64,000 bases of DNA, from positions 682,001 to 746,000 of the forward strand of contig JADBKR010000008.1 of the NCBI GenBank assembly GCA_014896295.1, given 5' to 3'. The notes beneath the pieces were generated by a model. The model ran no database searches. It was given only the letters and a program-made list of their open reading frames with translations, and had not been told where the DNA came from. The translations under genes and the position numbers were made by a program. Source of the stretch: Limnochordaceae bacterium (GTDB lineage: Bacteria > Bacillota > Limnochordia > Limnochordales > Geochordaceae). Below are positions 1 through 52,157 of the stretch, piece by piece. Position 1 is the stretch's first letter; each line of letters begins with the position of its first letter.

Positions 1-253
1 TGGGGCCGATGATCTTCAGCACGCTCCTCCAGTCCATGGGGGGCGGCTCGGGAAGCTGCTCGACCGCCAGCGGAGGCCCTGAGCCGATCTCGACCTGCCG
101 GACGCCACGTCTCTCCGCGACTGCCACCAGGGTCACCCCTTCCTGAGGATTTACCCGAGGATTCGCCTTGGAAGATACCGGTTCCTCTCGGATCTTGACG
201 ACACGGGGTATTCGGACTTTGACGACACGGGCCGTGCGGTCTGTTGCTGCCAT
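1..253 (-). CDS. Partial hypothetical protein downstream of pstA (3' end outside window)
   Basis: An open frame of 84 codons starts at an ATG (positions 253-251) and runs off the left edge. I do not recognise the family. Near the N-terminus an 8-codon stretch is tandemly repeated (RVVKVRIP then RVVKIREE, about 185-235), and the protein continues with a beta-rich stretch and a Pro/Glu segment. It lies 85 bp after pstA on the same strand, so it could be the last gene of the pst operon, where pstB or phoU would normally sit, but it resembles neither. A GTG at 136 is a possible alternative start. The in-frame 24-bp repeat supports coding rather than a mobile-element end. Confidence 0.45.
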   Translation of the reverse strand, partial: MAATDRTARVVKVRIPRVVKIREEPVSSKANPRVNPQEGVTLVAVAERRGVRQVEIGSGPPLAVEQLPEPPPMDWRSVLKIIGP

Positions 254-338
254 GGAACGGGGTAGAGAAGAAACGGCGGAACCTTGTTCAACGTATTGAA
301 TACCATGGGCAGGCGCTGCCCGGAGAGGGCGCCGGACC

Positions 339-1235
339 TCACCGCGTCCCTCGCAGCCTGGACCGGCCCCCGGGGCCCGCTCGTGTACGGATCCAGAGCA
401 CGGCCCCGTTGAGCGCCAGGGTGACCAGCAGCAGTACCGCCATGGTCGCGTAAAGGCTTGGCTTGGTCAGCTCCACGTCGGGTGACTGGGTGGCCAGCAC
501 GAAGACGTGATAGCCCAGTTCCATGAACTGGTCGGACGGCTCGAGCGGCAGGGAGGGGGCGAAGTACGCGACCCCGGTGAACATGATGGGAGCCACCTCT
601 CCGACGGCCCGGCTCACGGCGACGAGAGCCCCGGTCAGCACGCCCCTGCCGACCAGGGGCAGCACCCCGAATCGCACGGCATCCCAGGGACCGAGCCCAA
701 GGGCTCGCCCAGCCCGCCGGTGGTTGGGCGGCACTTCACGGAGCGCCCGCTCCGTCGAGCTGACCACCACGGGCAACGTATACGCTGCCATGGTGAGACC
801 CGCCCACACCACCGCGGGCTGGCCGTAGACCAGGTTGCCTGCGGAGAACCACCGATCCAGCTGCTGGCCGACCCCGAGCACGAAGAAACCCAGGCCGAAC
901 AAGCCGTACACGATGGCGGGCAGCCCCGCCAGGCGGCTCACGCTCCACCGCATGGCTCGCCCCGTGAGGGAGCGATCGTCCGAGAAGGCCGCCAGGTAGA
1001 TGCCGCCCAGCATCCCCACCGGCACGGTGATCAACCCCACCATCGCCACCAGCGCGAGCGTTCCTACGATGGCCGGCAGGATGCCCCCGGAGACGAGTCC
1101 CTCTTCCGGCGGGAGGGTGAAGAAGTCCCGGCTGAAGCGAGGCACTCCCAGCGCCAGCACGGCGACGACGAGCGCAACGAAGCTAGCGACGACGAGGGCG
1201 CTGGCTGCCGCCGAAAGCCACCGCAACAGCCTCAT
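339..1235 (-). CDS. pstA: Phosphate ABC transporter permease PstA
   Basis: Inner-membrane permease of the high-affinity phosphate importer PstSCAB. The 298-residue protein has about six hydrophobic segments. It carries the permease EAA-like loop (STERALREVPPNHRRAGRALG, about residues 165-185) and a following VSRAVGEVAPIMFTG stretch typical of PstA. Its start overlaps the end of pstC by 53 bp, which is longer than usual, but the N-terminus (MRLLRWLSAAASALVV) looks natural. It is the last recognisable pst gene of the operon. Confidence 0.93.
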   Translation of the reverse strand: MRLLRWLSAAASALVVASFVALVVAVLALGVPRFSRDFFTLPPEEGLVSGGILPAIVGTLALVAMVGLITVPVGMLGGIYLAAFSDDRSLTGRAMRWSVSRLAGLPAIVYGLFGLGFFVLGVGQQLDRWFSAGNLVYGQPAVVWAGLTMAAYTLPVVVSSTERALREVPPNHRRAGRALGLGPWDAVRFGVLPLVGRGVLTGALVAVSRAVGEVAPIMFTGVAYFAPSLPLEPSDQFMELGYHVFVLATQSPDVELTKPSLYATMAVLLLVTLALNGAVLWIRTRAGPGGRSRLRGTR

Positions 1236-2175
1236 GGCCGTTCTCCGGGTCGCCGGGCGCGAGCAGGGGCGGCGCCGGGCGAGTCAGCCGGGCCAGCAGT
1301 TCGTGCGCCGCCAGCGAGACCGCCAGCAGGATGGCTCCCAGCATGAACAGCACGCTGTAGTGGGTGCTGCCGTACACCACCGATCCCATCTCGGCGGCGA
1401 TGGTGCCGGCCAGGGTCCGCGCCGAGTCGAGCGGGGAGAGGGAAAGCACTGCGGCGTTGCCGGTCAGCATGACCGGGATCATGGTCTCGCCGAAGGCCCG
1501 GGCGAACGCCGCCACCCCGGCTCCTGCGAACCACCGCCACCCCGCCGGCAAGGCCAGGTGAACCAACGCGGCCCCCTCGCGGATACCGAGGGCCCGGGCG
1601 GCCCGGTAGACTCCGGATGGCAGGGCGGACAGGCCGTCCGCCGCCATCCGGAAGACCAGGGGCACGGACCATAGCCCCAGCACGACCGCCGCGAGGCAAG
1701 CGTTGAGCTCGGAGGGGGCCCCCGTCACCTGCTGCAGCGGCGTCGCCAGGAAGAGCAACCCTGCCGCACCCAGCACCACCGTCGGCACCCCGTCCAACAG
1801 CTCCATCACGGCTACCACCGCCGTCCTCACCGCCGGGTGGGCGTGGCGGGTAACGTGGAAGGCTGCGAGCGAGCCGAGCGGCCACGCCACCGCCAGCGAC
1901 AGCAGGCTCACCCGGGTGCTCCCCAGCAGCAGGGGCACGATGGAGCACTTGGGCCGCAGGGCCACGGGCTGCCACACGTACGGGCGCGAAGGCGCAGGGC
2001 CGGGCTCGTCGCCCCACCAGAGATGGGCAGGGTGGAGCGCTTCCCCCGGCAGCGGTTGGGTCCAGACCAGGAGCGCCTCGCGCAGGATGAAGTAGAGGAT
2101 CGCCAGCACTCCCAGCACGCTCACCCAGGCGGCCGCACCCGAGAGCCCGATCCAGCCCCGCTCCGCGCGGCGCAT
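1183..2175 (-). CDS. pstC: Phosphate ABC transporter permease PstC
   Basis: Second permease subunit of PstSCAB, 330 residues, with several membrane segments. It has the conserved MELLDGVPTVVLG stretch (about residue 123), an EAA-type coupling loop and ARAFGETMIPVMLTGN, which are hallmarks of PstC. A large predicted periplasmic loop with PALWWGDEP-like composition follows the first helix. It starts 27 bp after pstS. The C-terminal tail is Pro/Arg-rich and overlaps pstA, so a few C-terminal residues may be affected by a sequence error. Confidence 0.92.
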   Translation of the reverse strand: MRRAERGWIGLSGAAAWVSVLGVLAILYFILREALLVWTQPLPGEALHPAHLWWGDEPGPAPSRPYVWQPVALRPKCSIVPLLLGSTRVSLLSLAVAWPLGSLAAFHVTRHAHPAVRTAVVAVMELLDGVPTVVLGAAGLLFLATPLQQVTGAPSELNACLAAVVLGLWSVPLVFRMAADGLSALPSGVYRAARALGIREGAALVHLALPAGWRWFAGAGVAAFARAFGETMIPVMLTGNAAVLSLSPLDSARTLAGTIAAEMGSVVYGSTHYSVLFMLGAILLAVSLAAHELLARLTRPAPPLLAPGDPENGHEAVAVAFGGSQRPRRR

Positions 2176-2202
2176 GGCTCCGATACGCGTCCACTGCCCC
2201 TC

Positions 2203-3048
2203 TCAGCGCAGCGGGATGTAGCCCACTTCGGCGACGACGGCCTGGCCCTCGTCGGAGAGCACCCAGTCGAGCAGCTGCCGGGCCAGCGGGCCGGGCTCTC
2301 CGAGGGTGTACCAGTAGAGGGGCCGGCTCAGCGGGTACGTGCCGTTTCGCACGGTCTCCAGGGAAGGCGCCACTGCCGGAGCCCCTTCATGCGCCCGGAT
2401 CCGCACAGCTCGCACCCCGTGCGCGTACGCGATGCCGCCGAAGCCGATGCCGTTGGGGGTCCGAGCCACTGCGTTGACCAGCGCCGCCGTACCCGGCATG
2501 GTCTGGGCCCTCGGGGTATAGTCCTCGTTTTGCATGACGTGTTCCCGGAAGAAGACGTAGGTGCCGGAGTTGTGCTCCCGGCTGTATACGATGATGGGTT
2601 GGTCCAGCCCCCCGACTTCCGACCATCGCCGGATGCGCCCGGTGAAGATGCCCCGCAGCTGGTCGACCGTGAGCGCCTCGACCGGGTTGGCCTCGTTGAC
2701 GTAGACGGTGACGCCGTCCTTCGCCACCACGAACTCGTGCACCTCTTTGCCCCTGCGCTGCCGGGCCAGCGCCCGCTCCTGGGCGGTCATGGGGCGCGAC
2801 GCCTCCGCGATGTCGGTCGTGCCGTTGATCAGGGCGGCGATCCCGGATCCCGAGCCGCCTCCCGTGACCTGGACGGCGATGTCCGGGTTTTTCCTGGCGA
2901 ACTGCTCTGCCCACCGCTGCCCCAGGATGACCATGGTATCCGAACCCTTGATGGTGAGGGCCTGACGGGCCATCGCGGGATGGCTGCCCCAGCCCTCCAG
3001 CGCCGCCAGCAAGAGCAGTGGCGCTCCCCACTTCCAGGCGCCCTTCAT
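2203..3048 (-). CDS. pstS: Phosphate-binding protein PstS, periplasmic type
   Basis: Phosphate-binding component of the ABC importer, 281 residues. An N-terminal signal peptide (MKGAWKWGAPLLLLAALEGW) ends near the PAMA|RQ signal peptidase I site. There is no lipobox Cys, so it should be soluble in a periplasm rather than a lipoprotein. Phosphate-binding features include TIKGSDTM, TGGGSGSGIAAL and SREHNSGTYVFF. The ATG overlaps the stop of the upstream EAL/GGDEF gene (ATGA), implying translational coupling. Low phosphate is the expected inducer, but I saw no clear PhoB box. Confidence 0.94.
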   Translation of the reverse strand: MKGAWKWGAPLLLLAALEGWGSHPAMARQALTIKGSDTMVILGQRWAEQFARKNPDIAVQVTGGGSGSGIAALINGTTDIAEASRPMTAQERALARQRRGKEVHEFVVAKDGVTVYVNEANPVEALTVDQLRGIFTGRIRRWSEVGGLDQPIIVYSREHNSGTYVFFREHVMQNEDYTPRAQTMPGTAALVNAVARTPNGIGFGGIAYAHGVRAVRIRAHEGAPAVAPSLETVRNGTYPLSRPLYWYTLGEPGPLARQLLDWVLSDEGQAVVAEVGYIPLR

Positions 3049-4844
3049 CGCATGGCCTCCTTCCGCTCGTCCAACATCACGATGGCGTTTCCATCCTGGA
3101 TCTTGGCCTTCCGTTTCAACTGCCCCACGTTGGAGACGAACTCCAGGTACGACCGTACGTGGCCGCGCGGATTGTGGAGGATGGCGATCGAGAGGGTCAT
3201 GATGCCGAAACGGGTACGGTTGCCTCTACGGTCCTCTCCCTCGATGTACCCGCGAGCCAGGTCTTCGGGAGCGTACAGCAGGCGTGCGCGGCCGTCGAAG
3301 GCCTCCACCACGGCTCGGGCCACCTCGGGCCCGGAGTCGCCGGGCACCACCATGACGAAGTCGTCCCCTCCCACGTGCCCGATGAAGCTTTCTCCCGGAG
3401 GAAACCGGGCGGCCTGGGCCTGCAACACCTCGGCGAGAGCGCGGATGGCTTGGTCGCCGCGCTTGAAGTCGTAGTGGTCGTTGAACGCTTTGAAATCGTC
3501 GATGTCGCAGTAGAGCACCGAGAAGTCGGCTCCGTGCTCCAACCGTCGCGCCACCTCGCGTTCGATGACGCGGTTGCCCGGCAAGCCGGTCAGCGGGTTG
3601 GCGTCGCGGGCGGCCTCGATCTGCAGCTGGGTGATGCGCTGCAAGAGCCGCCGCACGGTCACGAGACCCTGATAACGCCCGTCGTCCGTCACGATGATGC
3701 TGTCGTACGCCGACGACTCCTGGCGCTGGGTGGCCCGGTACGCGACTTCGGAGAGAGGGGTCGAGCCGTCCACGACGAGGGGGGCGGGATCGGCCGCGAG
3801 CCGCACGGGCCGCGCGGAGAAGATGGCCCGCCCGTACCGGCGGCCCAGGAGATAGAAGAGCCGGTCCCTCATGACGAGCCCTACCGGATGTCCGTGCTCG
3901 ACCACGGCCACGGCGCTGAGGCCCGGGTCCTGCTCGAAGCGTTGAAGGACGGCGGTGACCTGGCAATCGGGTTCGACCGGGGGCACGCTCTCGGCGAGTT
4001 CGCCGACCGGGGGTTCGGCGTGCCCGGTGCCCAGAAAGATCCGCTGGGCCGCCCTCAGTTCCGCGAGGCTCTCCGGCGACACCGGCGGCGGCACCGGCTG
4101 CGGGCGGGCGAGCAGGAATCCCTGGCCCATGTCGACGCCGGCCCGCACCAGGAACCGGAGCTCTTCGAGCCGCTCGATGCCTTCCGCCACGACCTGGGTG
4201 GAGGCGGAGTGGGCCGCCTCGACGATGCCCCGCACCAGGTGCTGGCGCATCCGGTCCTGGTCGATGTGGTCGATGAGGCTGCGGTCGATCTTCACGAAAT
4301 CGGGTTTGAGCGTCAGGAGGCTCTGGAGGGAGCTGTGCCCGGCCCCCATGTCGTCGATGCCGATGGCAAATCCCTGCCGGCGATAGTGGCGAATGGCTCC
4401 CTCGATGTGGCGGCCCTCGTCCAGGGAAGCCGCCTCGGTCAGCTCCAGCACCACCGCCTCCAGGGGCAAGCGGGCTGCATCCACCCATTGGCGGGTGAGG
4501 CCCTGCCGGAAGCCGGGCTCGGAGAGGCTCAGCGGGTGGACGTTGAGGAAAAGCCGGGGTGATGGGCCGTCCGCGCTGCCTCCTGCGCGAGGCTGGGCTT
4601 TGCGCACCAGCTCGGCCCAGCGGTGAATCGCCAGGCGCCGGCTGGCCGAGTCGACCTCCCAAAGGCGGCCGCTCGCCCGCGCCCAGGCGAATAGGCTTGT
4701 GGCGCTCTCGATGGCGCTACCCTCGGGACCCCGGGTCAGGGCTTCGTAACCGGCGACGGTCCCGTCCCTGAGGCGCACGATCGGCTGGTAGAAGGTCCGC
4801 AGGCTCGGGAGTTGGGCGCCGGGTGCGGTGGGGGCATCGCCCAT
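3045..4844 (-). CDS. EAL-CBS-GGDEF cyclic-di-GMP signalling protein
   Basis: A 599-residue cytoplasmic protein with no membrane segment. The EAL phosphodiesterase domain is at about residues 15-250 (YEALTRG at 33-39, LELTEA, GIDDMGAGHSSL, KIDRSLI, VVAEGIE), so its metal-binding residues look intact. Two CBS-like repeats lie at about 265-400. A GGDEF domain lies at about 415-575 (PLTGLPGN, YCDIDDFKAFND, active-site variant GGDDF at 492-496). Either or both catalytic activities are possible, with CBS domains that may sense adenine nucleotides. It lies between a PstB-like ATPase and pstS and overlaps pstS by 4 bp, which ties c-di-GMP turnover to phosphate uptake genes. Confidence 0.92.
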   Translation of the reverse strand: MGDAPTAPGAQLPSLRTFYQPIVRLRDGTVAGYEALTRGPEGSAIESATSLFAWARASGRLWEVDSASRRLAIHRWAELVRKAQPRAGGSADGPSPRLFLNVHPLSLSEPGFRQGLTRQWVDAARLPLEAVVLELTEAASLDEGRHIEGAIRHYRRQGFAIGIDDMGAGHSSLQSLLTLKPDFVKIDRSLIDHIDQDRMRQHLVRGIVEAAHSASTQVVAEGIERLEELRFLVRAGVDMGQGFLLARPQPVPPPVSPESLAELRAAQRIFLGTGHAEPPVGELAESVPPVEPDCQVTAVLQRFEQDPGLSAVAVVEHGHPVGLVMRDRLFYLLGRRYGRAIFSARPVRLAADPAPLVVDGSTPLSEVAYRATQRQESSAYDSIIVTDDGRYQGLVTVRRLLQRITQLQIEAARDANPLTGLPGNRVIEREVARRLEHGADFSVLYCDIDDFKAFNDHYDFKRGDQAIRALAEVLQAQAARFPPGESFIGHVGGDDFVMVVPGDSGPEVARAVVEAFDGRARLLYAPEDLARGYIEGEDRRGNRTRFGIMTLSIAILHNPRGHVRSYLEFVSNVGQLKRKAKIQDGNAIVMLDERKEAMR

Positions 4845-4872
4845 GGAGTGGATCGTGCTCCTTTCTGTGCGT

Positions 4873-5631
4873 TCATCCCTGGTGCAGCAAGCGCTCCGTA
4901 CGGGGGTCCGAAGGATTCAGGAGGATGTCGGCGACAGGGCCGGACTCCACCAGCTCTCCGTCGAGGAGGACGGCGACCGTATCGCCCAGGCGGGCGGCTC
5001 GTTCGGGCAACTGGGTGGCCACGACGACCGGCCTCCCGGCGGCGATGCGGCGGAGCACCGCCTCCACGGCGAGCCCTGCGTGGGGGCCGAGGGTGGCGGC
5101 GGGTTCGTCCACCAGCAGGACGTGCGGGTCGCCCGCCAGCGCCCGCGCCAGGGCAAGCTGGTAAGCCTGGGCCGGCGAAAGGTGCTCGACACGGCGGGAG
5201 AGGCCACCCGGCCACAGCTCCGCCAGACCCGCATCCTCGAGCGCCCTGCGCATGGCGGCCAGCTGGAGCGGCCGGGGCTGGCGGCGCAGCGACGGGGCCA
5301 GAGAGAGATTGCGCAGGACCGTGCCGGGGAAGAGGTAGGGCTCCTCCATCACGATGGGGGCCAGGTGGCGATACGAAGCGGCCGGGCCACCGGCCGGCAG
5401 CACCCGGCGGTCTCTCACCCACACTTCGCCTCTGGCCGCGGCGCCTGCCTCGTCCTCCAGCAGCCCGTTGATGGCCCACAGGATCGTGGACTTCCCCGCG
5501 CCCGGCGGCCCGAGCAGCACGGTAACGCCGGTGGCCGGGACGTCGAGGCTGAGATCCCGCACTGCCAGGCGCCCCGCCCAGGAGATGGTCAGCTGCCGTA
5601 TGCGAATGACGGCTTGCTCCGGCTGGCGCAA
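4873..5631 (-). CDS. Divergent PstB-like phosphate ABC transporter ATPase
   Basis: ABC ATPase of about 252 residues, first in the pst operon and 28 bp before the EAL/GGDEF gene. Walker A is GPPGAGKST. The WAINGLLED segment after it recalls the PstB pattern LNRMNDL. The signature loop is degenerate (LSPAQ instead of LSGGQ), and Walker B is VLLVDEPAATLG. It is the only candidate for the missing PstB of this operon. I prefer the TTG at 5631 because GGGGAA sits about 7 nt upstream. A GTG at 5709 is in frame but has no ribosome-binding site. The altered signature motif means activity should not be assumed. Confidence 0.72.
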   Translation of the reverse strand: MRQPEQAVIRIRQLTISWAGRLAVRDLSLDVPATGVTVLLGPPGAGKSTILWAINGLLEDEAGAAARGEVWVRDRRVLPAGGPAASYRHLAPIVMEEPYLFPGTVLRNLSLAPSLRRQPRPLQLAAMRRALEDAGLAELWPGGLSRRVEHLSPAQAYQLALARALAGDPHVLLVDEPAATLGPHAGLAVEAVLRRIAAGRPVVVATQLPERAARLGDTVAVLLDGELVESGPVADILLNPSDPRTERLLHQG

Positions 5632-5717
5632 CGGCGCATTCCCCGTATGCCATGGACTGGATCGATTGGTCTGCGTTGCCTGTGGGGCAGGGTAGCACCG
5701 GCGAGTCACAAGTGTGC

Positions 5718-5741
5718 AACGGCCGGGTTCACCCGGCCGTT
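5718..5741. repeat. Perfect 10-bp inverted repeat in a divergent intergenic region
   Basis: AACGGCCGGG and its exact complement are separated by a 4-base loop. The repeat lies between the divergent pst operon and the DNA methylase. No T-run follows on either strand, so a simple terminator is unlikely. An operator or a transcript hairpin is possible. Confidence 0.5.
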
Positions 5742-5902
5742 ACATCGACAACACTGGGGCCCGGGCGTCAGGCGCGGGGCGAGGAGGCGATCCGGACCGC
5801 CGGTGCTCGGCCCAACCAAGCCTGCGGCCATCCGCTACAGAAAGGATGCAGCCTCCCCGGAGCGAACCCTTGTTTGCGTGGGGGACATGGCCGCCCGTGA
5901 CA

Positions 5903-7738
5903 ATGTCGGTGCTGGAGCAGCTCAGGCTCTCAGGGCTCGACGAGCGGATCCGCCGCGAGATGCGTAACAGGGAGATATACACCCCTCCCATCAGCACGTT
6001 CCGCTGGTGGGCACGGCGGAGCCATATCCTGTTCGGCTCCATTGTCGAGGCGGCGCAAGCCGCTTTGGGTAGGAGCCTGCTCATAGTGGACCCATTTGCC
6101 GGTGGCGGTACCTCCATCCTCGAGGCGGTGCGAAGGGGGCACCGCGCATACGGCCAGGACATCAACCCCTGGGCAGTCCGCGGCATGCGGGCCATGCTCT
6201 CGCTTATGCACGTCGCTCCTGAACAATTCGAGGACGCGGTGGGGCGCCTTGCTGAGAGCGTGGTTCCGACCGTCAAGCGCGCATACTACGTCCACGGAGC
6301 CTGGACAACCCACGCTTTTCGGGTGGCTAGTTTCAGCTGCCCGCGATGCTCGAGCAAGGTCTGGCTTTACCCCTATGCGTTGTTGAGCCTTGCCACCCGC
6401 CGTACGGATGAGGATACGGCTTGGTTCGGGTGCAGGCGGTGCGGTGCCGTAACGAAGGGCTCCAGGGCACACGGGGTGCGGTGCCACGGGTGCGGCGAGG
6501 CGCTTGGTTCGGCTGAGGTCTATCTTCCGAACCGGCAAGCCCGATGCCCCGAATGCGGCTTTACCGCGAAGGTAAGCACGATAGCGGCCGAGCAACGGCT
6601 TCAGTATGAAATCGTGATGGTCGAGCGGGCACTGGATGGGAAGCGATGGCTTGAGCCAGTAACCCCCGCGGACATCCAGGCGGCGCAGGAGTGGCCCGAT
6701 ACGCATTTGCCCGCTGGCGACATTTCCGACGGCAAAGAAACCGCGGTACTCCTGCGACACGGTTTTCGCCAGTGGCGGGATCTGTACCCGCGCCGACAGC
6801 GGGCCGTCTTGACCGAGTTGCTGGACGCCATAAGGACGCTACGGGCCGACGAGACGGTCAAGGAGATCCTTTACGTGGCTGCAGTCGGGACAGCGGAAAT
6901 GGCAGGGCTGGCCTCACGATGGGATCGGTTCTACTTGAAGGCATACGAGGTGACGGCCAACCACCGCTTCGCTTTCGTGCCGTTCACGGCTGAGCCCAAC
7001 ATTTGGGGCGACGAGACGAGCGGCAGGGGTACCTTCGTTCGGCGGGTGCGGCAGCTTCGCCGGAGCCTGACATGGTTTCGCCGGCAGCAACGACTGGCGG
7101 AAGGGTTGGGACGGTCGTTGGGCGGCGAAGTGTCCATCGTCGAAGGGCCGAGCCAAAAGATGGCCCTCCCGGACGCGTCAGCTCACTTGATCCTCACGGA
7201 TCCACCTTACTACGGCGACGTCCAATACGGCGAGCTCTCGAGCATATTCCGGGCCTGGCTGGGTGCGCCCACCGGGCCGCTCCCCCACGAAGTAGTCGTT
7301 GACAGCCGCGGCAAGAACGGCGATGCGTACGCCGCGCTGCTTCGGTCCGTTCTTGCCGAAGGTCACCGGGTGCTCCGTAAAGATGGAAGGCTCATCTTGA
7401 CGTTTCATAACCGGACGCCCAGGGCGTATCAAGCCCTCGCTGAAGCTCTCCATGGGGCTGGTTTCGGGGTGATCACGTGGCGTTGGGTGGCCAGCGAAAA
7501 CGAGCGGGACTTCGCAAAGCGTGACAAGACCGCATGCACCATGGACTTGCTGTTGGAGTGTGCGCCACTGCCCGTACCTCAAGTGCAGCCACCGCCACCT
7601 CCAGACGAAAACGACGTGGAGGCCCACTTTCTTTGGATGGCCGGTCAGCTGCTGGCCGGGGTAACGAATGGCGGCATCTCGGTAGACATGGACCGTGTGC
7701 TGCGCGACCACCCCTTTCTGAAGGAGACTAAGCCGTGA
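5903..7738 (+). CDS. DNA methylase with internal zinc ribbons (DUF1156-type)
   Basis: A 611-residue putative DNA methyltransferase. The N-terminal stretch (TPPISTFRWWARRSH, about 27-41) resembles the family pattern with KWWARR. The AdoMet motif DPFAGGGT is at about 63-70 and the catalytic motif DPPYYGDVQYG starts at about 433. Between them are four CxxC pairs at about 146/149, 177/180, 194/197 and 215/218, consistent with one or two zinc ribbons. The start is uncertain: ATG 5903 gives the family-like N-terminus, while GTG 5897 and ATG 5846 are in frame. The stop overlaps the GTG start of the next gene (GTGA). Base composition is visibly lower in GC than the flanks, suggesting horizontal transfer. 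Relatives occur in phage-defence neighbourhoods (known family context), but no helicase or nuclease is present here. Confidence 0.82.
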   Translation: MSVLEQLRLSGLDERIRREMRNREIYTPPISTFRWWARRSHILFGSIVEAAQAALGRSLLIVDPFAGGGTSILEAVRRGHRAYGQDINPWAVRGMRAMLSLMHVAPEQFEDAVGRLAESVVPTVKRAYYVHGAWTTHAFRVASFSCPRCSSKVWLYPYALLSLATRRTDEDTAWFGCRRCGAVTKGSRAHGVRCHGCGEALGSAEVYLPNRQARCPECGFTAKVSTIAAEQRLQYEIVMVERALDGKRWLEPVTPADIQAAQEWPDTHLPAGDISDGKETAVLLRHGFRQWRDLYPRRQRAVLTELLDAIRTLRADETVKEILYVAAVGTAEMAGLASRWDRFYLKAYEVTANHRFAFVPFTAEPNIWGDETSGRGTFVRRVRQLRRSLTWFRRQQRLAEGLGRSLGGEVSIVEGPSQKMALPDASAHLILTDPPYYGDVQYGELSSIFRAWLGAPTGPLPHEVVVDSRGKNGDAYAALLRSVLAEGHRVLRKDGRLILTFHNRTPRAYQALAEALHGAGFGVITWRWVASENERDFAKRDKTACTMDLLLECAPLPVPQVQPPPPPDENDVEAHFLWMAGQLLAGVTNGGISVDMDRVLRDHPFLKETKP

Positions 7739-8343
7739 CGCTCGCTGAACTACTTGCCCGCGCCTCCGCAAATGATCCTTCCATTGCGAAGCTGGTGAAG
7801 TTCGTCAACGATCGGTTTGTCCAGCCGATGTTCGATCCAAGCCTCAGCGGTGTATCGCAGTACGAGCCGAAGTCGGTCGTGTTCGGACTGGATCGGTTTC
7901 CCACGCCCGAGACGGTTCGGGCGACGCTTCGACAATTGCTGGGAGATCCAAGCTACGCAACCTTCCGGAAAGTAGTCCGGCGCTACGGACAAGGGCAGGC
8001 ACTCTCGATCATTGCTACGCCAGGATTGGCTTCTCCGGCCATCCCTCTCCGGATGGCAACAGCTACGGTATTACCTCGAGCACGGCGTACCGTATGAGCT
8101 GCTGGTACTGCAACGAATGGTGGGCACCCCATTCGGAAGCGCTCAAAACGCATCATCGGAACAGGTCGCCGCCTACCTCAGCAACCTGTTCTTGTACAAC
8201 TACCTACCGATGCCCTCGTCGACGGGAGCGGATGGAACCAGCGCCGCGCCGAGGTGGCTCGGCTTGCCCTTGACATTGGCGGGCAAATCTACCGTCTTGG
8301 CATGGCACCCTCTCTCGTCGAGGCCATCAAATCGCGCTCTTGA
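7735..8343 (+). pseudogene. Frameshifted partner gene coupled to the DNA methylase
   Basis: Three successive protein-like segments read in frames 1, 2 and 1. They are 7735 to about 8010 (LLARASANDPSIAKLVKF...VVRRYGQGQALSII), about 8012-8205 (RQDWLLRPSLSGWQQLRYYL...AAYLSNLFLYNYL) and about 8205-8343 (TDALVDGSGWNQRRAEVARL...LVEAIKSRS, TGA). The two shifts cancel and give a product of about 202 residues. The GTG start overlaps the methylase stop, so the two were translated together. I do not recognise the family. It shares the low GC of the methylase. It may be decayed, or the two single-base indels may be sequencing errors, since other genes in the window show the same defect. Confidence 0.6.
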
Positions 8344-8441
8344 CCGCCTCGGGTAAGTCTTGCTGTTTGGGGCGTGCCAGAGGAGGCCGAAGCAAAACCA
8401 AGGGTAGGCGGTATGCCGAGGGATGTAGGCTGGTGCCATCG

Positions 8442-9437
8442 ATGAAAGCGCAAGCGCCGCGCCTGCCGGACGCCTTCGTCCAGCGGCTGCGGGAAACGTG
8501 GGGGCCGCTCGAGGTGGACCGGATGCTGGCGGGCATGCGCGCGCCCCGGCCCGTCACGCTCCGGGTCAACACGCTGCGCACCAACGTGCGAACCGTTATC
8601 GCGACCCTCTGGGACGCCGGCATCAAGGTGGAACGGGTGAGCTGGTACGCCGACGCGCTGATCGTCAAGAACGCGCGCGAAGCCCGGCTCGAGGCGCTGC
8701 CCGAGTACCGCGAGGGCCACTTCTACCTTCAAAGCCTCTCCAGCATGGTCCCGCCCCTCGTGCTGGCTCCGCGGCCGGGCGAGCGGGTACTGGACGTGGC
8801 GGCGGCGCCGGGGAGCAAGACCACGCAGATGGCGGCCATGATGGAAAACCGGGGCGCCATCCTCGCCATCGACACGAGCGCGGTGCGGGCCGAGCGCCTG
8901 CGTTTCAACCTGCAGCGCCAGCAGGTGACCATCGCCGAGGTCAGGGTGGGTGACGGGCGACGGCTCGGACCCGGCTCGCGCGAGCAGTTCGACCGGGTAC
9001 TGCTGGACGCCCCGTGCAGCGGCGAGGGGCGGTTCGTGATGGGGGACGTCTCCACGTACCGGCACTGGTCCGAGCGGCTCGTGCGGCGTCTCGTGCCGCT
9101 GCAGCGGCAGTTGCTCTCGAGCGCCCTGAGGGCCGTGAAGCCCGGCGGCGTGGTGGTCTACTCCACGTGCACCATCAACCCTGAGGAAAACGAGGGTGTC
9201 GTCGAGTGGGCGCTCAGGCGGTACGGGGACGCGGTCGAGGTGCTGCCCATCGAGCTTGCGCTGCCCGCCCGCTGGCCCGGGCTCACAGGCGGGGGAGGCC
9301 ATCCGGCGCTTCGGCTCGCCTTGCGCATCCCGCCGTCGGCCACGATGGAGGGCTTCTTCGTCTGCAAGCTGAGAGTGAAGCGGCCGCTGGAAGCAGCTCC
9401 ACCGGACGGTGCCCCTGAAGAAGCCCAGCGCAGCTAG
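8442..9437 (+). CDS. NOL1/NOP2/Sun (RsmB/RsmF-type) RNA cytosine-C5 methyltransferase
   Basis: A 331-residue AdoMet-dependent RNA m5C methyltransferase, probably acting on rRNA or tRNA. Motif I is VLDVAAAPGSKTTQMA (about 112-127). Motif IV LDAPCSGEGRF carries the PCS cysteine. Motif VI YSTCTINPEENEGVV carries the TC nucleophile cysteine. An N-terminal segment with TLRVNTLRTN matches the RsmF/RsmB-like pre-domain. It is shorter than RsmF and lacks an obvious PUA domain. The start is ATG 8442 or GTG 8433. It follows the low-GC island after about 100 bp, in which I see nothing. Confidence 0.85.
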   Translation: MKAQAPRLPDAFVQRLRETWGPLEVDRMLAGMRAPRPVTLRVNTLRTNVRTVIATLWDAGIKVERVSWYADALIVKNAREARLEALPEYREGHFYLQSLSSMVPPLVLAPRPGERVLDVAAAPGSKTTQMAAMMENRGAILAIDTSAVRAERLRFNLQRQQVTIAEVRVGDGRRLGPGSREQFDRVLLDAPCSGEGRFVMGDVSTYRHWSERLVRRLVPLQRQLLSSALRAVKPGGVVVYSTCTINPEENEGVVEWALRRYGDAVEVLPIELALPARWPGLTGGGGHPALRLALRIPPSATMEGFFVCKLRVKRPLEAAPPDGAPEEAQRS

Positions 9438-9521
9438 CCACCCCCGAGACCCCGGCTGTGTGCGTTAACACGCCCGCAACGCTCTCGGACGATGATGGGC
9501 CGTGGGGGAGGTCGATGCCCG

Positions 9522-11017
9522 GTGTCGAAAGCGGTGGGCACGTCCCCAAGGCCGGCTCGCACAAGAAGCTTCCCATGGCGTGTCGTCGCAAGCCTCGCCG
9601 TGTCCGTCGGCTTCGTGTGGTTCTTCCGCACGTGGTGGCATTCCCCCGTCATGTGGCTCTACGCGACCCCTGCGGTGCTCGAGGCGGCCATCCTGTGGGT
9701 GGTCGTCCACCGGTTGTTGCGGCGCGTCCCGGGCCTGACGCGCGTGCATTCGGTCCGCTGGAAGGAGCAGGGGGTAGAGAGCGCGCACAGTTTCGCTGGC
9801 TGTCGTGGGCATCGGGCGCCGTGGGCGCCGTGTTGATGGTCCTCCTCCCCCTTGCATCCCTGTGGCTGCGATACGCCGAACTGGCACGCACCACCGAGTA
9901 CCGCCCCATCGATCGGCTTCCCGAATCGGCGGAACAGATCCGGGTGATGCCGGTCGAAGTGGCGGAGCGCTACGCCCGGGACTCGCTGCAGACCCCGCAG
10001 TATACCGTGGGGCGCCAGGCGCTCGTACCGGTGGAAGGCCGGCTGAGCTGGGAGTTTCTCCTGGTGCCGAGCGGGGCGGTCATCAAGGGGCTCTTGCCGG
10101 CGGGCGGGGTGGCGGTGGTCGACGCGACCACACAGGAGAAAAACACCCGGCTGATCCAGCAGCCCATGCGGCCGGCCGAAGGCATCTACCTCACCGATAA
10201 CTTATGGTGGCAGGCGTACCGCCGGCGCTACTTCGTGAGCGGCGAAAAGCCGTTTTACGTGCCGGGGGCCGACGGGCGGATCTGGACGGTGGCGCCGGCC
10301 ATTGGATGGCGCCACCGGTGGGCGTGGGGCGTCTGGTACACGGTGCCCTACTTCGCCGGTGCCTTCGTGGCCTCGCCTGAAGGCAGGGTGAGCTTCGTCC
10401 GGGCGGAGCAACTGCCCGCCCATCCCGTGGCCGGCGGCACCCGGGTGTTTCCCGAGCAACTCGCCCGGTGGATCGCCGAAGCGTACGCCTACCGCCGCGG
10501 CATCGTCAATGCCCTGTTCATCCACCAGGATCAGGTGAAGGTGACGGACGTGTCCCGCGGCGAGGATGGCCCTGTCAACCGCCAGCCGTTCTTGATGACG
10601 ACCCGGCAGGGGATGAAGTGGTTCGTGAGCGCCGAGCCATACGGTCGCAGCCGGGGCATCTTCAAGGTCTTTCTCGTCGACGCCGTGAACGGGCAGACGG
10701 AGATGCTGTCCCTGGCTGCCGACCAGACCTTGACGGGGCCGACCCGGGCCATCGACTACGTGCGGCGAGCCAATCCGCTGGTGGACTGGTCGGGGTTCGA
10801 GATCATCGAGCCGCTGCCGTTCGTGCGTGACGGGGTGCTCTACTGGAAAGTCGTGGTCATGCCCAAGGACGCCGCCGGCATCGCGTACCAGGCTTTTGTC
10901 GACAGCCGCACCAACCGGGTCTACACGGTCCAGTCCGACGAGGAGGTCGCCCGCTTCCTGGCGCAGGGGCCCGGAGGCGTGCCGGGAGTGCCGAGAGAAC
11001 CCCGGCGGCAGGCGTAG
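9522..11017 (+). CDS. Unknown membrane-anchored protein with large extracytoplasmic domain (frameshifted)
   Basis: The N-terminal part (GTG 9522, GGGAGG about 10 nt upstream) encodes two membrane helices (WRVVASLAVSVGFVWFF, TPAVLEAAILWVVVHRLL) and runs in one frame to about 9770. From about 9780 the next frame gives a third helix (GAVGAVLMVLLPLASLWL) and a domain of about 380 residues rich in Trp and Tyr, ending at 11017. The two halves join if one base is restored near the G5 run at 9770-9774. I do not recognise the family. A further frame continues to a coiled-coil tail ending at 11172 (see findings). Confidence 0.65.
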
Positions 11018-11179
11018 CGGGAAGGCAGGGACCGGGTCCCCAGGTCGCGCCCGAGCTGCCCCCGTCGCCGCACGCTTCCGACCTCGCCCGCATCGAGCAA
11101 CTCCTTGGGGAAATCCGGGAGCGGCTGGACGAGCTCGAGGGGCAGGTCGACTTGCTGAAGCAGACCAGGTAGACCCGCC

Positions 11180-11989
11180 TTACGGCCGGTCCGGGCGGCT
11201 GCGCTGCAGCTCCGGGTCGAGGGCCCCGTCGGCCGTGAACAGGCGCCGGTAGGCGGAGAGCACCAGCACCAGGCAGCCCAGGGCGACGGCGGCCGAGATC
11301 ATGAGCATCACGACGATCTGGTACCGCACCGCCTGGCGGGGGTCGGCACCCCCGAGGATCTGGCCGGTCATCATGCCCGGCAGGCTCACCAGGCCCACCA
11401 CCATCATCGAGTTGATGGTGGGGGTCATGCCGGTGCGCACGGCCTCTTTGACGGACTCCCGCACGGCTTCCCACGGGGTCGCGCCGAAAGCGAGCAGTTC
11501 CTCGACTTCCGCAAGCCGCTCCCGGGTGGAGCCGTAGAGGCGCTGCAGTGCCAGCGCGACGCCGTTCATGGAGTTGCCCAGGATCATCCCGAAGATGGGG
11601 ATGGCGACGCGGGCCGAGTACCAGGGCTCGGGGCGGATGATGAGCCCGACCACGATGCCCCCCACGAGCACCGAGCTGGCGAAAAGCGCCGCAAAGGCCA
11701 GCTCCCTCGGATAGCGCGTGACGTCCCTCGTGCGCGCAGTGGCCGCCTGGGTTGCCACGGCGGTCATGGCCACGGCGACCAGGAAGACGAGCCAGGGGCG
11801 GTTGGACTCGAAGATGAAGGCCAGCACGTAGCCGATGAGCATGAGCTGGACGAACGTGCGCAGCGTGCCCACGAGGAGCGGGCGCAGCAGGCCGAGCTGC
11901 AGCGCCGCCGATACCCCGCCGGCCAGGAGCACCAGCACCACCGAGAGGGCGAGCTGCGCATCGCTGATGGGGATGACACCGGTGTTCAC
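11180..11989 (-). CDS. FetB-like ABC permease (UPF0014 family)
   Basis: A 269-residue membrane protein of about seven helices. It has the family segments LLVGTLRTFVQLMLIGY, IFGMILGNSMNGVALAL and GMTPTINSMMVVGLVSLPGMMTGQILGG. E. coli FetB and the plant STAR2/ALS3 proteins are relatives; FetAB is linked to iron export (known family role). The GTG start overlaps the stop of the ATPase gene (GTGA), so the pair is coupled. The metal specificity here is not shown by the sequence. Confidence 0.85.
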   Translation of the reverse strand: MNTGVIPISDAQLALSVVLVLLAGGVSAALQLGLLRPLLVGTLRTFVQLMLIGYVLAFIFESNRPWLVFLVAVAMTAVATQAATARTRDVTRYPRELAFAALFASSVLVGGIVVGLIIRPEPWYSARVAIPIFGMILGNSMNGVALALQRLYGSTRERLAEVEELLAFGATPWEAVRESVKEAVRTGMTPTINSMMVVGLVSLPGMMTGQILGGADPRQAVRYQIVVMLMISAAVALGCLVLVLSAYRRLFTADGALDPELQRSRPDRP

Positions 11990-12669
11990 GGGGCCGCCTC
12001 CGTCCCATTGCGGTGGAGGTCGACCGCGGTCACGGGGGAAAAGGCTCCGCCGTCTTCCTCCACGTGGGAAACCAGCACGAGACCTCGCCCTGGTCGGGCC
12101 TTCACCCATCTCCCGAGGAACTGGATCACCGTGCGGCGGGTATCGGCGTCGAGGGCTGCGGTCGGTTCGTCGAGCAAGAGTACGGACGGGCCGGCGAAGA
12201 CGGCCCTGAGCAGGGCCACCCGGGCCAGTTCCCCACCCGACAGGGTGCGGGCGTCCTGGGCAGGGTCGCTCAGACCCAGCCGGGTCATGGCCTCGACGAC
12301 CCGGTCCCGACCGGGGGGCGGGAGGTCCTTGAAGATCCGCAGCCGGTACGGCACCAGGACGTTGTCGAGCGCGCTGCCGTCGAAGACGACGGGGCGCTGG
12401 GCCAGGTAGTGCACGAGCCGGCGCCACAGCGGGGGAGAGAACTCCCCCATGTCCCGCCCGGCCAGCCACACCCGGCCCGAGACGATGGGCACCAGGCGGG
12501 CAAGGGCCCGCAGCAGGGTCGACTTGCCCGCACCGGACGGGCCCCGCAGCACCAGCGCGCCCCCTTCGGGGACCTCCCCGGAAGCGACGATGCGGCGCAA
12601 GCCCCTGGCCGGTTCGCACACCAGTTGGTCGAAGCGAAGAACGGGCTCGCAAGCAACGTCGCTCGTCAT
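11986..12669 (-). CDS. FetA-like ABC transporter ATPase
   Basis: ATPase of about 227 residues partnering the UPF0014 permease. Walker A is GPSGAGKST, the signature is LSGGELARV and Walker B is VLLLDEPTAALD. I start it at ATG 12669 (MTSDVACEPVLRF), which gives a family-length N-terminus; an ATG at 12708 is in frame but adds an unusual basic stretch. Together with the next gene it forms a two-gene export system, possibly for iron by analogy with FetAB. Confidence 0.85.
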   Translation of the reverse strand: MTSDVACEPVLRFDQLVCEPARGLRRIVASGEVPEGGALVLRGPSGAGKSTLLRALARLVPIVSGRVWLAGRDMGEFSPPLWRRLVHYLAQRPVVFDGSALDNVLVPYRLRIFKDLPPPGRDRVVEAMTRLGLSDPAQDARTLSGGELARVALLRAVFAGPSVLLLDEPTAALDADTRRTVIQFLGRWVKARPGRGLVLVSHVEEDGGAFSPVTAVDLHRNGTEAAP

Positions 12670-12694
12670 CACAGAGGCGATGGTACGCTTTCGA

Positions 12695-12720
12695 GGGCCG
12701 GCCGTCAAATGGGCCGGCCC
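12695..12720 (-). terminator. GC-rich hairpin between tauE-like and fetA-like genes
   Basis: GGGCCGGCC and its complement flank a 7-base loop, between the end of the TauE/SafE gene and the start of the ATPase gene on the same strand. No U-tract follows, so this is only a possible terminator or attenuator. Confidence 0.35.
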
Positions 12721-12768
12721 CCGGCGGCGTGCCGGCCTTCAAGGGAGGCTCCGGGGGGCCGGCCGCCC

Positions 12769-13758
12769 TCAGCGCCCGCTCCGCTCCCATACCACCCGCT
12801 CGGCCGGGGGCTGCTGCCAGGCCTGAGGAGGCTGGGCAGGACGGGCGGGAAGGGCCCGCACGGGGCGGCGCCTCCGGGAGCCGAGGGCCAGCAGGAGGCT
12901 CGCCACCCCCAAGAGCCCCACGGGCACGACCACCAGCGGGCGAAGCCGTTCGGGAAGGCCCGCTGCCTGGAGTACGACGGGCAGATTGACCAGCACGACC
13001 ATGCCGCCTACGGCCGCAGCCAGCAGGCGCTGGGGCATCCGGCTCACGATGTAGGCCGCCAGAGGAGCCGCGACCGCTCCGCCTGCCATCAGGGCGAGCA
13101 CCCAGGCCGGCTGGACGGCCTGCGTCCCCCTTGCGGCGAGAAAACCTGCCGAGGCAGCCGCCGTCACCAGAAACTCCGCCGTGTCGACCGAACCGATGAC
13201 CTGCCGGGGAGCGGCCTCCTTACGGGCCAGCAGCAGGGGGGTGGCGACGGGCCCCCAGCCACCCCCTCCCACCGCGTCGGCAAAGCCGGCGACCCCGCCG
13301 ATGAGGGCGAGCAACCACGGGCGACCGGGATGCGCGCCGGGCCGGCTCCTGCCGGAGGTGGGCAGGGAGGCCTGGCCCCGGCCCTGTATCCGGGCGTCTC
13401 GCACGCAACGCACCAGGATGTAGGCACCGAGCGACAGCAACAACACGGAGACGTACGGCCGGGCCAGGTGACCCGGTACATTGGAGAGCGCCGTCGCCCC
13501 CAAGAACGCGCCCACCATCCCCGGGATGGCGATGGCGCTCACCAGGCGCCATCGGACGTTGCCGACCCGCCAGTGAGCGAGCCCCGACAGGGCGGTCGTG
13601 ACCAGCTCGGCCACGTGCACCGTCGCCGACACCACGGCGGGAGCGATACCCGCCAGGGTCAGCAGGCTCGCGGAAGAGACGCCGTAGGCCATGCCCATGG
13701 AGCCGTCCACGAGCTGGGCGATCAGGCCGACCAGCGCCAGGAAGAGCAGTCTTCCCAT
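12769..13758 (-). CDS. TauE/SafE-family sulfite/sulfonate permease
   Basis: A 329-residue membrane protein with about eight helices in two half repeats. The N-terminal motif AQLVDGSMGMAYGVSSASLL and the second-half motif GGVAGFADAVGGGGWGP are characteristic of the TauE/SafE (DUF81) family of anion exporters. ATG 13758 has GAGGGGG 8 nt upstream and starts just before the first helix; the upstream ATG at 13809 is less likely. It stands alone, so sulfite or sulfonate export is only the family default. Confidence 0.88.
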   Translation of the reverse strand: MGRLLFLALVGLIAQLVDGSMGMAYGVSSASLLTLAGIAPAVVSATVHVAELVTTALSGLAHWRVGNVRWRLVSAIAIPGMVGAFLGATALSNVPGHLARPYVSVLLLSLGAYILVRCVRDARIQGRGQASLPTSGRSRPGAHPGRPWLLALIGGVAGFADAVGGGGWGPVATPLLLARKEAAPRQVIGSVDTAEFLVTAAASAGFLAARGTQAVQPAWVLALMAGGAVAAPLAAYIVSRMPQRLLAAAVGGMVVLVNLPVVLQAAGLPERLRPLVVVPVGLLGVASLLLALGSRRRRPVRALPARPAQPPQAWQQPPAERVVWERSGR

Positions 13759-13888
13759 CCATGCGGCCCCCTCTTCGGCAATGAGGCTGAAGGCCGCGGC
13801 GCGCCGCACGCTCCGGTACCGGGCTGGTACGGCAGCAGTCTATGCAGGGGATGGGACACGGGTCCCGGGAACGGAGTCCTAGGGAGAC

Positions 13889-14842
13889 CTAACTGGGCCG
13901 GGGCGGCGAGGGAAGAGCCGCCAGCCGGTGGCGGGCCAGTTCGCAGTATTCGGGGACGATGTCGTAGCCCACGTAATGCCGTCCCGCAAGGCGGGCCGCC
14001 ACGCACGTAGAGCCCGAGCCGCAAAACGGGTCGAGCACCACGTCGCCCACGTAGGAGTAAAGGCGAATGACCCGCTCCGCCAGCGCCACCGGGAACGGGG
14101 CAGGGTGGCCGACCCTGCGCGCCGACTCGGGCGGGATCTCCCACACGGAGATCGTGGCTTCGAGGAACTCCTCCGCCGGGATGTCCGACTCCCCGGCATC
14201 GGGCCGGCGAAACTCCCCTTTGGCGAACACCAGCAGATACTCGTGGACGTCTCGCAGCCGCGGAGCCCGCGCCGAACGCCAGCTGCCCCACGCGCAGCTA
14301 CCGCTCATGCTCTTGCCCTTGCGCCAGATGATCTCCCCGGCCGGTAAGAAGCCGGCGGCGGTGTGCACGGCGTAGAAGTACGCGTGCACGGGCACGTAGG
14401 GCTTGCGCCCCAGGTTGGCCACGTTGACCACGTAGCGCCCGCCCGGCTTGAGCACGCGGTACACTTCGGCGGCGACCCGGCCGATGAGATCAAGGTACGC
14501 ACGCAGGTCGACGTCGGCATCGTACTCCTTACCGTCGTTGTACGGGGGTGAGGTGAAGGCGAGGCCCACGCTCCCGTCCGGCACGTGGTCCATCGCCTCG
14601 GACGTGTGGCAGTAGATGCGGTCCGCCCACTGCTCCGGCGGCGACCAGGGCACGGAACGGGCGGCCGATGGGGGCTGCAAAGAGACGGCTGCCGGCTCCG
14701 GAGGGGCCGCCGGCTCAGGGGCGGGCGCGAGGCTCAGCGCAGGCAGGCCGTTGGCATACAGGGTGCGCGAGTAGAAGCCCGAGGCGTCATGGCTCTCCCG
14801 CTTGGAGACCCCGAAGCTGGAGGTCCGGGTCCTGCGCGCCAC
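13889..14842 (-). CDS. Orphan site-specific DNA methyltransferase (beta class)
   Basis: Putative N4-cytosine or N6-adenine methyltransferase of about 317 residues. The catalytic motif TSPPYND comes first and the AdoMet motif DPFCGSGST near the C-terminus, which is the beta-class order; SPPY is most common in N4-cytosine enzymes. An N-terminal [14 protein letters not shown] stretch is conserved in relatives. The start is uncertain (GTG at 14842, 14851 or 14854; upstream sequence is Pro/Ala-rich). No restriction endonuclease is adjacent, so it looks like an orphan, possibly regulatory, methylase. Confidence 0.82.
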
Positions 14843-14908
14843 CGGTCGCACCACTCCCCCTGCGCTCGAAGTATTGGCTCCTTGCGCACGGCTCCCTGCA
14901 CGAAGCGA

Positions 14909-14934
14909 GCCGGGGCGCTGCAAAGCGCCCCGGC
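14909..14934 (-). terminator. Perfect 11-bp hairpin downstream of the barrel-protein gene
   Basis: GCCGGGGCGCT and its complement flank a GCAA tetraloop. The hairpin lies about 100 bp after the stop of the secreted barrel protein and before the methyltransferase. There is no U-tract. It is the most striking element in the gap of about 190 bp at 14843-15034. Confidence 0.45.
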
Positions 14935-15034
14935 CCCTGACCCCGACCCGGAGGCGACACGGACTTCGCGTCATCTCGACGGCAGGCCCCGCGTCCACTC
15001 GACCCAGGGGCCCTGCGAGCTCGTGACTCCAGGG

Positions 15035-15751
15035 TCACTCGCCGGAGTCGCCGTCCCGGAACCTCGACCACTCAGGGCCGAAGACCAGAGCCAGCCGGTA
15101 CTGGACGCCGCTCAGGGCATCGCCGGGCGCGCCGCTGAGCGGGTCCGTCCCCCGCATGGTCGTCCAGCCCTTACCGGCCCGTGTGTCCCAGAAGTAGGCG
15201 GCCCCGGCCTGCAGGTGCAGGAACGGCGTGATCTTGAGGGACACGGACACATCGGGCACGATGCCGAGGATGAACCGCGTGTAAGTCGTTTGATTGGACG
15301 TATTCAGCTCGAACTTCCCCGACTCTGGCTGGAGCACCGTCAGGGTCGCACCCCCGAACGCCAACCCGAGGCCGGCGTCCAGCGATACCGGACCGGCAAT
15401 CGGTCGCTGGTAGCCCACGCGTGGGCCGCCGTACCCCAGGTCGAACCAGCGGGTGCGGCCATCGCTTGCTTTCGCCTCGACGTGGCCGCCGGCGCCGAAC
15501 CCACCTATGGTGAAGCCGTCGGCCCCGACCAGCGGGCCATAGCCGCCACCGCCGAGCAGCCACATGGCATTGCCGACTTCGGGTAGCCCTGCCGCCTTCA
15601 GCGCTTGGTTGAGCTCCGGCACGGACAGGGTCTGGTAGGTGGCCGTAAACCCGCCCCCGGCGAACGGGGCGGCCGCAACGATGCCCGACGACGCGACGAG
15701 GGCGATGAGCGCCACCGCCAGCACGCGGAAAAGATCGACACGCTTACCCAT
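15035..15751 (-). CDS. Secreted glycine-rich beta-barrel-like protein
   Basis: A 238-residue exported protein. It has a signal peptide (LFRVLAVALIALVASSGIVAAAP), then a pattern I associate with a family of barrel proteins in deep-branching bacteria (LSVPELNQALKAAGLPE, MWLLGGGGYG, GGFGAGGH). The rest is made of alternating beta strands (for example LDAGLGLAFGGATLTVL, SVSLKITPFLHLQAGAAYF). ATG 15751 is chosen because the upstream in-frame sequence is basic and precedes GGAGGAAA. An outer-surface or outer-membrane location is inferred. Confidence 0.6.
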   Translation of the reverse strand: MGKRVDLFRVLAVALIALVASSGIVAAAPFAGGGFTATYQTLSVPELNQALKAAGLPEVGNAMWLLGGGGYGPLVGADGFTIGGFGAGGHVEAKASDGRTRWFDLGYGGPRVGYQRPIAGPVSLDAGLGLAFGGATLTVLQPESGKFELNTSNQTTYTRFILGIVPDVSVSLKITPFLHLQAGAAYFWDTRAGKGWTTMRGTDPLSGAPGDALSGVQYRLALVFGPEWSRFRDGDSGE

Positions 15752-15893
15752 CGTGATGCGTTTCCTCCTTCGTCCATTCAAGGCTGACCCGTTTCCCCAC
15801 ACCGTTGCTCTCGCCGGGTACGCCAGCGCCAAGAACCGTTCCTGCCGCGAGCGCCTCACCTCTGCTTCTCAATTAATCCCAGACGCCGGGGCT

Positions 15894-15919
15894 CCACCAG
15901 TGACTGCGGTCACTGGTGG
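15894..15919. repeat. Perfect 11-bp inverted repeat in the divergent barrel/thiL region
   Basis: CCACCAGTGAC, a 4-base spacer, then the exact complement. It sits midway between two divergent genes (starts at 15751 and 16029). Its inner GTGAC/GTCAC half-sites look operator-like. No promoter could be assigned with confidence in this gap of about 280 bp. Confidence 0.5.
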
Positions 15920-16028
15920 GGTCACGAATCGGCGGGTTCAGGTTCACGGCTTAACGCGCGGGGCAAGAGCGTGCATCATGGGCGTGGGAGCATGGACGAG
16001 GCGGCCAATGAAACGAGGGGGGACCGCC

Positions 16029-51989: not shown

Positions 51990-52157
51990 TCTAGCCACGG
52001 CGGTGGGAGGGCCGTAATGGACAGTTGTCCCGCTACGGACAGTGCGAACGTACTGTTTATGGCTCCCAGGCTTCCGCGAGCGCGGAAGAGGAAGAGACCC
52101 TTCCAGGCGGAAGTACCTTGCCCGTAAGCGGTTCAACGAGGGGAGTCGAATGGTGGT

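Follow-up and report, generated by a model that had tools for sequence, protein, structure and literature searches.

Between positions 5897 and 8343 of the window (the whole stretch of DNA analysed here, 64,000 nucleotides), the GC content falls to 62.2%, compared with 69.9% in the left flank and 69.5% in the right flank, and this island contains a methylase gene and the remains of a partner gene. It is bordered on the left by an ABC transporter ATPase gene with the opposite reading direction and on the right by a gene for an RsmB/F-like rRNA methyltransferase. The original prediction had described a low-GC island, a methylase with four CxxC pairs between motifs I and IV and a GTGA overlap with a partner gene; the island was recovered with the values above, the CxxC pairs were located at amino acids (aa) 146-218 of the methylase and the overlap at 7735-7738.

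The first gene (5903..7738, forward strand) encodes a zinc-ribbon DNA methyltransferase of 611 aa in an open, apparently intact frame, from an ATG at 5903 to a stop at 7736-7738. The protein contains SAM motif I (DPFAGGGT, aa 63-70), the four CxxC pairs (CPRC 146-149, CRRC 177-180, CHGC 194-197 and CPEC 215-218) and motif IV (DPPY, aa 433-436) in this order, and thus has both the SAM motif and the catalytic motif of a methyltransferase. All columns that are invariant among 19 relatives are kept, including six of its cysteines. The DPPY motif is associated with N6-adenine methylation, and by this motif the enzyme is probably of the N6-adenine type. A structure model of the methylase was obtained at a pLDDT of 87.9, and its matches in a Foldseek search were methyltransferases of many kinds, none of them specific. 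The likeness to DUF1156 methylases proposed in the original prediction turned out to be loose. The anti-phage methylases of this kind (NCBIfam NF042963, PADLOC DUF1156_MTase, HmaB and PglXI) share the methylase core and the long stretch inserted between motif I and motif IV, but their profiles span ~920-970 positions against 611 aa here. Pfam DUF1156 was not among the matches of the window methylase and NF042963 scored 58.9 bits, far short of its cut-off of 1000, with its best stretch on the methylase core, which places the protein outside this group.

The methylase stop and the partner start overlap in the GTGA at 7735..7738 (forward strand). Short stop-start overlaps couple translation, and we infer that the methylase and its partner are coupled in this way. 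From 7735 the partner is read in frame 0, from ~8012 in frame 1 and from ~8207 again in frame 0, until a stop at 8341-8343, over a span of 202 codons. Searches of the window partner with Pfam, NCBIfam and PADLOC returned nothing except a chance match to HEAT_2 (E 0.22), and a plasmid search with the broken partner sequence found no relatives. We had also considered the partner as a piece of the 839-aa gene that follows a Rubrobacter methylase, and rejected this as the two have no similarity.

The partner became interpretable through its relatives. Relatives of the methylase turned up at 35 loci in a scan of 84,980 genomes, and the closest methylase found (58-59% identity) was in locus L020, a Bacillota MAG. 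This methylase is followed by a partner homologue of >400 residues, with a 4-base ATGA overlap at the same junction as the GTGA of the window. Of the other defence genes searched for, none lies beside the two L020 genes. The L020 partner is read over two overlapping frames (275 aa and ~150 aa) and contains SPDI...IEAK and DGGTAR, with PDIAF...VVAVIEAKVASDGGTARQK in its C-terminal part. Its frame change lies at a run of eight C (L020:10650-10665) in a contig named with a coverage of 2.4, and is likely a sequencing error, real variation being indistinguishable from error at this site.

The alignment to L020 puts three gaps in the window partner: one of ~39 residues close to the N-terminus, a central one of ~50 and one of ~110 ahead of the final 45 residues. 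Segment 1 (7735..8010, forward strand, frame 0) covers the N-terminal region and lacks the ~39 residues, in frame, after residue 14. Segment 2 (8012..8203, forward strand, frame 1; 'GW...GVPYELLVLQRMVGTPFGSAQNASSEQVAAYL') follows the ~50-residue gap and is 65% identical to L020, and segment 3 (8207..8343, forward strand, frame 0; 'ALVDGSGWNQRRAEVARLALDIGGQIY...KSRS' and the stop) is the C-terminal part, with 67% identity. Between these two, at an approximate junction at 8204..8206 (forward strand), the ~110 L020 residues that are absent include PD...EAK, the putative active site; in L020, 334 bases separate the matches that flank this gap (10594 and 10929). A family HMM matched segment 2 at positions 210-255 and segment 3 at positions 324-379, and gave no convincing match in the window for positions ~256-323, which contain the ExK region (~306-311), while in L020 it matched positions 149-273 and 306-377. 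As judged from these alignments, the ancestral partner gene was about twice its present length. The original prediction had reported a partner of about 202 residues with two compensating frameshifts: the 202-codon span and the two frame changes stand, but the latter are the junctions of the ~50- and ~110-residue deletions in a longer gene, and a third deletion is in frame.

Since the source assembly is a draft of eight contigs, one might suspect that the gene is intact and was misassembled or misread. We consider this extremely improbable, as the lesions are losses of ~39, 50 and 110 codons, unlike single-base homopolymer errors, and the adjoining methylase frame is open. Differences from L020 at the first, second and third codon positions are 0.36/0.25/0.60 in segment 2 and 0.35/0.28/0.77 in segment 3, and the third-position bias of both resembles that of the methylase (0.35/0.25/0.63), which indicates that constraint at the protein level acted on the partner until not long ago and that its decay is recent. 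Under another explanation, the locus would be a working two-gene modification module in which a short partner, produced through ribosomal frameshifting or in the form of separate peptides, aids DNA binding by the methylase; in favour of this explanation, the overlap has been retained and identity to L020 is still ~65% in segments 2 and 3. It is nevertheless very unlikely, since the two frame changes are unlinked and lie at deletion junctions, the catalytic region is absent, the relatives are near full length and nothing connects the C-terminal frame to the start. The methylase has fared differently: three lesions fall in the ~1.2 kb of the ancestral partner and none in the 1.8 kb of the methylase, where four to five would be predicted under equal decay (rough Poisson probability of none, 0.01, our own calculation). 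This absence of lesions, compared with three in the partner, suggests on sequence grounds that the methylase is still maintained.

Intact homologues of the partner lie directly 3' of a methylase in a Streptomyces (L026) and in two further genomes of that phylum (L058 and L059), and a Microbacterium plasmid has an intact homologue directly after a methylase annotated as restriction-modification (R-M). The pairing on which the original prediction depended is thus found elsewhere, with partner homologues adjoining the closest methylase and several others. The ORFs of the relatives, as read, give partner lengths of ~350-470 aa. The uninterrupted homologues (L026, L032, L025 at 752-2026, L057, L058 and L059) contain APDF...LE(C/V)K or IEAK and, after it, DGGTARDK or DDGTARDK, so that the PD...(D/E)xK motif is present in these six and in L020; outside the L026 group they are distant, at 18-28% identity to L026. 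In L020, L026, L058 and L059, the catalytic motif occurs in a gene adjacent to the methylase.

The fold was assessed on the L026 protein, the only member of the family modelled (AlphaFold, mean pLDDT 80, core ~90). Its best structural matches were BstEII (Z 11.3 over 256 residues, rmsd 10.9), BsoBI (10.1), AgeI (9.7), BsaWI (Z 9.2 over 142 residues, rmsd 3.4) and NgoMIV (8.7), with further matches to Bse634I and PspGI, and the first two Foldseek matches were BstEII and EcoT38I. The model thus has a restriction-endonuclease-like fold. A profile of the partner sequences searched against solved structures returned unrelated proteins and no solved endonuclease, and PDDEXK_11 matched the partner relatives at E 0.018-0.043 only. 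From the motif and the predicted fold, the partner belongs to a family of putative PD-(D/E)XK restriction endonucleases, and it is the structure model that carries its match to type II enzymes. The original prediction had recognised no family for the partner, which no longer applies. The family goes unrecognised in Pfam, NCBIfam and PADLOC; its predicted members may already be in REBASE. With the putative active-site region gone, the nuclease of the window should be inactive, and these fragments were the only matches to the partner in the genome, which therefore has no intact endonuclease of this family.

Related methylases were found in three settings: with the endonuclease alone, in five-gene loci, and with DrmA and DrmB. 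The first setting comprises L020 and L026, together with L058 and L059, which have more distant methylases. In the second, genes for an endonuclease-like protein, a ParB-like protein, an SNF2 helicase, an NOV_C-type protein (putative nuclease) and the zinc-ribbon methylase occur together, all five of them in 12 loci (L021, L022, L024, L025, L027, L028, L030, L032, L033, L034, L038 and L050), over ~7-8 kb beside the methylase. PADLOC and NCBIfam models applied to two representatives (L022 and L025) matched single proteins only, with low scores, and the whole five-gene locus is covered by no single library model. The endonuclease homologue in these loci lies farthest from the methylase and has its ExK replaced by VSVA and similar. 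Together with the basal branch of the L020 partner described below, this suggests to us that an endonuclease was recruited into the five-gene locus with loss of its active site. Two of the loci hold an extra homologue with PD-(D/E)XK residues (L025:752-2029 and L032:6131-7231).

In the third setting, DrmA and DrmB genes adjoin the related methylase in 17 loci of a Rubrobacter plasmid and bacterial genomes, most of them with a DrmE-like gene; in the Rubrobacter locus, DrmA and DrmB were matched by PADLOC models. The order zinc-ribbon methylase, DrmE-like, DrmA, DrmB was seen in L010, L035-L037, L041-L045, L047-L049 and L054. The DrmE-like protein of L010 had no PADLOC match and that of L036 a weak match to NCBIfam DrmE. 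DISARM gene content was taken from PMC9142583. With these 17 methylases of the same zinc-ribbon family beside DrmA and DrmB, the window could be thought to hold a DISARM methylase now without the DrmE, DrmA and DrmB genes that once went with it. This is highly improbable: no member of the partner family occurs in the DISARM-like loci, the window has another partner gene and, in the ORFs of positions 1-16000, no trace of a DrmA, DrmB or DrmE homologue, and in a maximum-likelihood tree of the methylases the main DISARM-like clade is separate from that of the window (support 97/90). The locus is accordingly not classed as DISARM.

The five-gene loci come closer, having methylases of one family with that of the window as well as homologues of its partner, and the original prediction had allowed for a remnant of a larger defence locus. 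Such a remnant would have lost the three middle genes. In a partner tree with the two L020 pieces joined, L020 branches at the base of the five-gene homologues (100/100), which would fit this history, but its branch is long, and in the methylase tree the window and L020 form a clade of their own (99/100) outside both the five-gene and the DISARM-like clades. L020 shares the two-gene overlap, has none of the other system genes in its vicinity and keeps the ExK that is missing from the homologues in the five-gene loci, where the homologue is also the gene farthest from the methylase. The ORFs of window positions 1-16000 gave no match to the other genes of either kind of locus (ParB-like, SNF2, NOV_C, DrmA, DrmB and DrmE), and the window does not qualify as a five-gene locus. 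A five-gene remnant is thus unlikely.

The occurrence of methylases with the endonuclease alone, as in L020, and the position of the window and L020 clade outside both large clades make a two-gene type II-like R-M system, horizontally acquired and now in decay, the best reading of the locus, and we hold it to be very probable. The first gene encodes a zinc-ribbon methyltransferase that would mark a single sequence in the DNA of the host, and the second, from its overlapping start, would once have encoded a PD-(D/E)XK endonuclease that cut this sequence when unmarked. Three deletions have struck the endonuclease gene, two of them frame-shifting; the putative active-site region is gone and restriction should have gone with it. 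The methyltransferase, with its conserved residues all kept, is probably still active as an orphan DNA methylase. By its relatives the locus derives from a type II-like R-M system, and it is no longer one in the present genome. Common to type II systems are the adjacent methylase and endonuclease genes, the PD...ExK motif and the endonuclease-like fold of the family model; the differences are that no endonuclease model of Pfam, NCBIfam or PADLOC passes its cut-off, that the methylase here is a large zinc-ribbon protein and that the endonuclease gene of the window is broken. The minimal two-gene modification module of the original prediction was correct as to two genes, as in L020, but with a partner from an endonuclease family the ancestral module was most likely an R-M system, of which modification alone is left. 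Neither the methylase nor the partner was found in viral contigs, and a restriction-site avoidance count over a 428-kb sample of the genome gave no clear candidate for the recognition sequence.

In a study of pan-genomes, Oliveira et al. (PMC4176335) argued that few solitary methylases derive from complete systems that have degraded. The locus has the appearance of a system degraded in this way, an endonuclease remnant being still present next to the open methylase; it illustrates a route by which a DNA methylase comes to stand alone, and the visible remnant gives it some value. The unrecognised endonuclease family, tied as it is to the methylases of DISARM-like and five-gene loci, also bears on the origin of larger defence operons from restriction pairs. 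More tentatively, and with somewhat less than even confidence, the window and L020 may represent the ancestral form of the module behind the five-gene locus, in which the endonuclease of a simple R-M pair would have given up its active site to serve as a DNA-recognition or sensing subunit and the SNF2 and NOV_C-type proteins would have taken over translocation and cutting.

The acquisition of the island from outside is suggested by its GC content. GC and codon statistics were calculated on the same 428-kb sample, in which 2.0% of 1874 equal-size windows were as low in GC as the island. The methylase has a GC3 of 0.739 (13.5th percentile of 326 ORFs) and a codon score at the 12.8th percentile of 211 genes, inside the host range and no outlier. 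Of the two departures from the host foreseen in the original prediction, lower GC was found and deviating codon use was not; codon use being within the host range, the low GC is a hint of acquisition short of proof. In a comparison aimed at an empty insertion site, the flanks showed no synteny in the two nearest genomes, the RsmB/F-like gene alone being common.

No promoter or terminator consensus was found in 5500-8700. A GC-rich inverted repeat (14-base arms, 2-base spacer) lies at 5715-5744, in the divergent intergenic region upstream of the methylase. To the left, positions 339-5709 are occupied by minus-strand genes, in which a gene for an EAL-CBS-GGDEF protein (3045-4844) lies between a periplasmic-binding-protein/permease set (339-3048) and the ABC ATPase gene (4873-5709). 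A second local GC dip (60-65%) is present at 51750-52500 of the window.
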